In this document: positions 17,993-19,615 of the stretch, piece after piece
Layout of the letters: each line of letters begins with the position of its first letter
How positions within the stretch are numbered: the stretch's first letter is position 1
NCBI GenBank assembly: GCA_030613055.1
Contig: JAUWMR010000028.1
Span: 1 to 51,223, forward strand
DNA from: Desulfobacteraceae bacterium
Lineage (GTDB): Bacteria; Desulfobacterota; DSM-4660; Desulfatiglandales; Desulfatiglandaceae
DNA length: 51,223 nt
Reading direction: 5' to 3'
Position numbers and translations under genes: made by a program
Notes under the pieces: generated by a model
Told to the model about the DNA's origin: nothing
Databases searched by the model: none
Seen by the model: only the letters and a program-made list of their open reading frames with translations

Positions 17993-19414
17993 TCATTTAA
18001 GTGCCTGCCGGGCGATTTCAGTGCATGCCTTAAACTCAGATCTCTTAAAAGACGCGACGCACTCTTGTATGGATTCACCTTTCGCCTTCCCTCTCGGTTC
18101 GGGAAATCGTTTAAAGAGTTTCTGTATCATCAAAGCCGCTTCCAATGCATCGGAGCTCTTTTCAGGAGTAGTAATCAAAACGCCTTGGTTCCCTCTATCA
18201 GACCAAAGGGGGATTATGGCCACGTTACTTTTTTCGTCAATGAAGACGTTTCTGTTGTTCCGATCCAGTCTGAATGTGGCATGTGAAAAAGATGGAGAAT
18301 CCGGATCGGCATCCATGACCTTTACGGTACCGGAACCCTCCATAACATCCAGGTTGACCTTTAGCACAAGTATGCCGCTATCCGGCAGGAGCCGGTCGTA
18401 TCCGATGAGTTGGCGGTTTTCCACCAAGTAATAATGGTTCCAGTCGCCGCTCCATCTCCGTTTTAAGGGTATTTTAACGGCCAGAGTTTCGCCCTTTTTT
18501 GAAAGCGGTGACAGAAAAGCGCATTGGGTGCTGCCGGGTTTAACAAGACATACCTGGGCCGGGGATATCCACCCCAATCTGATTTTTGTAAAAGAAGAAA
18601 CACCTTGCGGGGGCTTTGTTTTTTCTATAAAATGGTGAGACATAATGTCCCATGGTCCCATATATATGGCATGATGACCGAAGCTGGGAAGTCTGGAAGC
18701 GTCAGACTGACGCTCAAAGTCGTACAGTCACGGAATAAGCCGTATGTTTTTGTATATCCCCCCGAGGGCATGGAAAAAATCATGGGCAAACATACCCAGA
18801 TGGGCATTTTCGGTCGCCACACAGACGCCGTCCTCGAATATCTTGCCCCCTTCCGACTCCATAGGCACATATCTGATATTTTTTCTCACACCTGAAAGCA
18901 TGCCTGGATTGGCACAATAGCACATCATTCCGTACCCCTTTCCAGGGGTTGTAAAGGCACAGGGTATGACAATTATGTGCTGGTATTGGGAGAAGTTCAC
19001 CTCTTTCTCAACGGCAGTCATAGAGTCCTCGATAAGCTTTTTGACCCTTGTTCTATCAACCTTGAAATTATAAGGGCTAACCTTATATTTTCGAATAGGG
19101 TCGGGAAGCATTACCCACCCTTTAAAGTCGGCCTTCACCCATGTCAGACCATACGATTGCTCTCTTACGTATTTGTTAAGACCCCTGACCACCTTTTTTC
19201 GAATTCGCTTTAGAGGAAACTTCGGTTCTACGTCAGGAAACCGAACCGCCAGTACAAGGACGCGTTGTTCACCTATGGCATGTTTTGATTGCGGCCCCAT
19301 AATATTTTCTTCCCGGGAACCCTCTGCCGGACTTCCCTGCAAACCTGCTAATGCAAAAAATAAAATTGCTATCAGCAAAAAATGATTCCTTATCAGTCTC
19401 AAAACAGGCTTCAT
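17993..19414 (-). CDS. Secreted M6-like metalloprotease homologue with in-frame TGA: candidate selenoprotein (or recent pseudogene)
   Basis: One reading frame runs from ATG 19414 to 17993 (473 residues) broken only by TGA at 18730–18728 (codon 229). The first part has a signal peptide (MKPVLRLIRNHFLLIAILFF…), VLVLAVRFPDVEPKFP and the metal-site-like HDFFHALGG, where HDxxH replaces the usual HExxH. After the TGA the same frame continues with LYDFERQSDA, a Met-turn-like GPWDIMS, and SSFTKIRLGW, the order seen in M6/immune-inhibitor-A-like proteases. M6 proteins usually carry a PDLYD-like segment at the place where IP-TGA-LYD stands here. A perfect 7-bp stem (8 with a G·U pair) and GUC loop follow the TGA at SECIS distance (separate entry). 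The frame stays open for 212 codons upstream of the final stop region, against old decay. An alternative is a nonsense mutation or two separate ORFs (19414–18728 and 18661–17993). Confidence 0.6.
18697..18715 (-). promoter_or_regulatory. Candidate bacterial SECIS hairpin after the in-frame TGA
   Basis: On the minus strand GAGCGTCA (18715–18708), loop GTC (18707–18705) and TGACGCTT (18704–18697) pair as 8 bp including one closing G·U. The loop begins with G and starts 20 bases after the TGA. The published bacterial SECIS model, as I recall it, needs a hairpin of at least four pairs, a G in the first two loop positions and a loop roughly 16–37 bases after the UGA; this meets all three. The E. 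coli fdhF element has a comparable CAGGUCUG apex. Confidence 0.5.
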
Positions 19415-19445
19415 CGTTCCTCCTCCCTTATTTTATTGGTGGTTT

Positions 19446-19519
19446 GTGACTACTCATGTAGTCAGGCTGAAGGTCCCGCGTTCCGCGGGACCTTCAGCCT
19501 AAATAACTTGAGTAGTTAC
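19446..19519. repeat. Palindromic element with 17-bp arms
   Basis: AGGCTGAAGGTCCCGCG (19464–19480) and its perfect complement (19484–19500) face each other across TTC. Outside them TGACTACTCA and TGAGTAGTTAC form imperfect outer arms. The GCGTTCCGC core is shared with the MITE-like elements at 9928 and 42098. It lies between two minus-strand genes; no T-run follows on either strand, so I do not call it a terminator. Confidence 0.7.
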
Positions 19520-19615
19520 GGTGGTTCATAAAAATAAAGATACTCAATTAGGAAAGAACCATAGTAAAGTTGGCCCAGTGTGTCAAGGATAGGAGCAACT
19601 AATTAGTGATCCTCA

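Follow-up and report, generated by a model that had tools for sequence, protein, structure and literature searches.

A candidate selenoprotein family with an M6 metalloprotease-like fold and selenocysteine at the predicted third metal-ligand position

Introduction

The closest described relatives of the protein reported here are immune inhibitor A and the other M6 peptidases (PDB 4YU5 and 4YU6), which we take to be the family named thuringilysins. M6 has been placed among the Met-zincins (PMC3890501). Metzincins carry the zinc-binding motif HExxHxxGxxH/D, in which the third ligand is an Asp in the snapalysins and thuringilysins (PMC12237041).

Known bacterial selenoprotein families combine a UGA codon and a bacterial SECIS (bSECIS) hairpin with Cys homologues, and occur in Desulfobacterota-type hosts with full selenocysteine (Sec) machinery (PMC13188914, Table 1). 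The M6-like protein shares these features. However, the 119 prokaryotic selenoprotein families and subfamilies catalogued in that May 2026 review are mostly redox proteins, and no M6 protein, protease or other zincin is listed among them (PMC13188914). An M6-like selenoprotein is also missing from the nine families of deep-Sep (PMC12013277).

In formate dehydrogenase (Mo/W) and [NiFeSe] hydrogenase, Sec ligates the active-site metal, as we infer for the M6-like protein. Both are redox enzymes, whereas the M6-like protein has a zincin-type hydrolase scaffold. A comparable site is found in peptide deformylase, where the metal is held by the two His of an HExxH motif and one Cys. Peptide deformylase differs in having another fold, a Cys that comes from elsewhere in the chain, a retained Glu, and Cys rather than Sec.

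We analysed a 51,223-nucleotide stretch of DNA, hereafter the window, from an uncultured Desulfobacteraceae bacterium that is a relative of sulfate reducers. An initial annotation of the window, made from the sequence alone, had proposed a new selenoprotein: a secreted M6-like metalloprotease homologue with an in-frame TGA next to its active site.

Results

Gene and reading frame

When TGA is read as Sec (U), the minus-strand frame from the ATG at 19414 down to 17993 is interrupted only once before its final stop, by the TGA at codon 229 (Table 1). The initial annotation had located this otherwise open frame correctly but had left its strand unstated. The predicted product is homologous to proteins of other genomes along its whole length, and its motifs follow in the order HDFFHALGG...IP-U-LYDFERQ...GPWDIMS...FTKIRLGW. 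In addition to the likely signal peptide, a lipobox-like Cys was seen by eye at the N terminus of several relatives in the family alignment. Consequently, the Sec of the window protein is probably exposed outside the cytoplasm.

The genes on either side are unrelated to the M6-like gene, and no conserved operon partner was found across 27 loci, where the other common frames are antisense or alternative frames of the gene itself. A GC-rich inverted repeat (ggtcccgcg...cgcgggacc, window 19470-19500) lies between the M6-like gene and an upstream FAD oxidase gene and is a possible terminator.

Table 1 Features of the M6-like gene in the window
Feature	Position	Strand	Remarks
Predicted M6-like selenoprotein CDS	17993..19414	minus	473 codons including Sec229; stop TGA 17993-17995; open frame with TGA=U
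In-frame TGA, predicted Sec codon 229	18730-18728	minus	homologous codon elsewhere: TGA in 14 more non-redundant copies, Cys codon in 11, Asp codon in 3
Predicted bacterial SECIS hairpin	18697..18715	minus	8 pairs, loop GUC 18707-18705; -10.4 kcal/mol; hairpin codons synonymously frozen
HDFFH, residues 211-215	18770..18784	minus	two His predicted to bind metal; catalytic Glu replaced by Asp
Tyr231, possible 'tyrosine switch'	18722..18724	minus	invariant, two residues after Sec
GPWDIMS, residues 253-259, likely Met-turn	18638..18658	minus	G253, W255, D256 and M258 invariant
N-terminal hydrophobic segment, likely signal peptide	19331..19414	minus	inspection of the sequence and family alignment
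Shine-Dalgarno GGGAGGAG	19420..19427	minus	5 nt before the ATG; read from the sequence
Promoter-like TTGACA-17-TATGGT, putative	19558..19586	minus	consensus scan only

Residue 229 among relatives

Relatives came first from 85 genomes of the order, searched by protein, and from a scan covering one genome for each species. More were added by a profile run against 395 genomes from the phylum and from two other groups. After repeats of the same record had been removed, codon 229 was TGA in 15 non-redundant genes, the window gene and the distant L045 included, TGC or TGT in 11 and an Asp codon in three. The proteins encoded by the 14 further TGA copies share 35–89% identity with that of the window. 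Neither Trp nor TAA or TAG was found at this residue among these relatives. The initial annotation had named Cys or TGA in homologues as the sign to look for, and Asp, Trp or other residues alone as evidence against Sec; Asp does occur, but alongside numerous TGA and Cys forms, and Trp is never seen. In the ordinary M6 proteins L048-L062 the alignment column of residue 229 holds the Asp of PDLY, replaced once by Glu.

Within one genus, two sister species separated by about 0.13 changes per site differ at this codon, which is TGA in L045 and TGT in L088. A tree built without site 229, in which many forks are weak, requires the residue to have switched between Sec, Cys and Asp at least nine times. 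No viral relatives were confirmed. Genome G045 holds a near-identical gene copy (L013/L022) with a frame break at about residue 190, upstream of the TGA (L022 1-1172), which is either an assembly error or real; an N-terminal piece of the gene is also found on another contig of this genome (L018).

Selection on both sides of the TGA

Comparing the window gene with four relatives, we found dN and dS to be similar before and after the TGA. Against L026, for example, the dN/dS values are 0.114/0.805 before the TGA and 0.109/0.642 after it. Such likeness on both sides indicates that the downstream part is translated as a continuation of the same protein. The conservation exceeds chance: many independent genomes share this TGA and hairpin and show purifying selection of equal strength before and after the codon. 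These comparisons indicate that UGA 229 is translated, and as Sec.

The hairpin downstream of the TGA

The hairpin reported in the initial annotation is present, with its first pair 12 nt after the TGA and 20 nt between TGA and loop. This spacing, together with the loop, stem and folding energy given in Table 1, agrees with the published bSECIS model (PMC13188914). Taken alone, the hairpin is weak evidence for Sec insertion. The 81-nt fold around it has a z of -1.35, a perfect stem of at least 7 pairs with a G starting the loop follows about 6% of the TGAs across the window, and when the peptide is recoded synonymously, 7 or more pairs arise in 3.7% of cases. We therefore rested the case on conservation. 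Of the merged window frames that run for about 70 codons or more both before and after a TGA, only this one has a stem of 8.

The hairpin codons do not vary across 13 Sec genes. All 13 use CGT for Arg235, CAG for Gln and GAC for Asp, and the 10 that carry the Glu all use GAG. Of the Arg codons in this gene set CGT is used least (35 of 476), yet Arg235 always has it. Synonymous variation is lower in the hairpin stretch than in any other of 194 five-codon windows, and 20,000 same-amino-acid resamples never reached so low a value, a result drawn from small codon pools and related genes. Two pairs are altered on both sides; the hairpin varies so little that compensatory changes are few.

The initial annotation had counted the lack of a conserved hairpin in relatives with TGA as evidence against Sec; the TGA forms do conserve it, and the Cys forms have mostly lost it. 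L045 (Sec) has a different hairpin, again with a GUC loop, and in L028 and L025 the core hairpin is possible, but isolated 42-nt folds favour another structure. In the Cys forms L027 and L036 it has disappeared through synonymous or near-synonymous changes. Such a pattern is consistent with Sec having been lost and gained. One Cys form, L023, retains an intact SECIS hairpin (L023:1503-1538) and looks like a very recent change from Sec to Cys.

Selenocysteine machinery

The sel genes that the initial annotation had suggested looking for (selA, selB, selD and selC) are all in the genome of the window, its tRNA-Sec having a UCA anticodon and scoring 71.7 bits. There are two separate selD genes (L089 and L090; G000:C87 and C68), each with an in-frame Sec TGA in the sequence GSGUASK, the usual Sec position of SelD. 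Among ten genomes with Sec forms that were searched, selB was found in all ten and tRNA-Sec in eight; the two lacking tRNA-Sec are fragmented assemblies. Most genomes with Cys forms also encode Sec machinery.

Fold and metal site

Sequence searches alone gave no convincing solved relatives; these were found by fold. An AlphaFold model of the window protein (pLDDT 90.7) matched immune inhibitor A2 (InhA2) best, over 333 residues of 4yu5_B (Z 26.1, rmsd 2.8), and Foldseek gave 4yu6_B at an E value of 2e-14. The next family, at a Z of about 10, lies far below InhA2. By predicted structure, the M6 homology proposed in the initial annotation thus stands, whereas 'protease' remains putative since HDxxH replaces HExxH.

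The export signal, the two metal-binding His, the Met-turn and an invariant Tyr after the third-ligand position are all common to the window protein and M6. His211 and His215 are invariant in the family alignment and D212 nearly so, and an analogous Tyr has been described in metzincins (PMC12237041). The new family is unlike M6 in having Sec or Cys for the third-ligand Asp, HDxxH for HExxH and an insert of about 8 residues, and in scoring below the curated M6 cut-offs of Pfam (PF05547, 16.2 bits against 22) and NCBIfam (TIGR03296, 65.9 against 110.8). The HExxHxxGxxD motif with its catalytic Glu is absent from the window protein, which has HDxxHxxG, the insert (between Gly219 and Pro228, before the third-ligand position) and U. 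Asp replaces the catalytic Glu in all Sec and Cys forms. Because of this replacement and the insert, geometry and activity may differ from those of M6 peptidases. A literature search of incomplete coverage found no metallopeptidase work on HDxxH. His261 (18632-18634), just past the Met-turn, shows almost no variation within the HDxxH family and is absent from the archaeal HExxH relative L032; it is a possible extra ligand or catalytic residue.

Discussion

Sequence comparison indicates that the M6-like protein represents a new selenoprotein family, and the initial annotation was correct in every main point. As the initial annotation had supposed, it does not belong to a described one: the 119-family catalogue lacks it, and NCBIfam 20.0 has no model covering it as a selenoprotein. 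Literature searches of incomplete coverage, which may have missed a report, found nothing pairing M6 or immune inhibitor A with selenoproteins, and nothing linking selenocysteine, metalloprotease, selenoprotein and Deltaproteobacteria together.

The TGA does interrupt the frame, and one gene copy has a frame break besides, so codon 229 might be thought a true stop, a pseudogene lesion or a sequencing error, with no recoding at all. We consider this extremely improbable and rejected it on conservation and dN/dS: TGA recurs at codon 229 in many separately assembled genomes, selection is alike before and after it, sister species have Cys counterparts, and the hairpin codons are frozen. The initial annotation had likewise judged old decay unlikely. 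Recoding as Trp was ruled out by the lack of Trp at the site and the presence of a tRNA-Sec with a UCA anticodon.

We regard it as probable that the protein is an exported one with an M6 fold, in which SECIS-directed Sec229 serves as third metal ligand, most likely in a metal-dependent hydrolase or peptidase-like site. In this model, the hairpin just downstream together with SelB and tRNA-Sec would direct Sec insertion at UGA 229, HExxHxxGxxD would have become HDxxH...U, and His211, His215 and Sec229 would together hold the metal, giving a predicted active site tuned by a selenolate ligand. The initial annotation had put Sec next to the active site; the present analysis agrees on the metal site and refines the place to the third zinc-ligand position itself. 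That role is supported by the alignment of residue 229 with the PDLY Asp of ordinary M6 proteins, Asp being the third zinc ligand of the family (PMC12237041). Most bacterial selenoproteins are redox proteins (PMC13188914) and a CYC motif is conserved in the main Sec clade, so that Sec could instead be a redox centre, forming for instance a selenenylsulfide with Cys165 or Cys167 of CYCANPGM. We find this improbable. Sec, Cys and Asp can all hold a metal, while Asp is incapable of redox chemistry, and 229 is a metal-ligand position by homology. Moreover, the Cys pair does not co-vary with site 229: the motif reads CLA in L045 (Sec) and GLC in the L016 group (Cys), and stays CYC in L030 (Asp). 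Judging from these alignments, a metal-ligand role is favoured over a redox role.

A metal ligand need not imply catalysis, and HDxxH...U might be an inactivated protease scaffold that binds metal for sensing, storage or detoxification without hydrolysis. The change of Glu to Asp in every Sec and Cys form fits such a scaffold, NCBIfam recognises a category of inactivated M6-like proteins (NF052323) that weakly matches the window protein, and Sec has been proposed as a metal ligand in some other selenoproteins (PMC13188914). We nevertheless think it rather unlikely, as the invariance of the likely Tyr switch and Met-turn and the very high conservation of the whole site fit catalysis, and the gene has no conserved metal-resistance or transport genes next to it. 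More tentatively, and at a little short of an even chance, the interchange of Sec, Cys and Asp may mark a zincin-type metallohydrolase with Sec as a ligand of the catalytic metal, that is, a hydrolytic rather than a redox use of Sec.

Most known selenoproteins are redox proteins; here Sec would sit where a zinc protease holds its metal. The natural Sec, Cys and Asp versions, two of them (L045 and L088) in sister species, may allow selenium to be compared with sulfur and oxygen at a metal site. Because annotation truncates them at the UGA, selenoproteins can go unnoticed in zinc-enzyme families.
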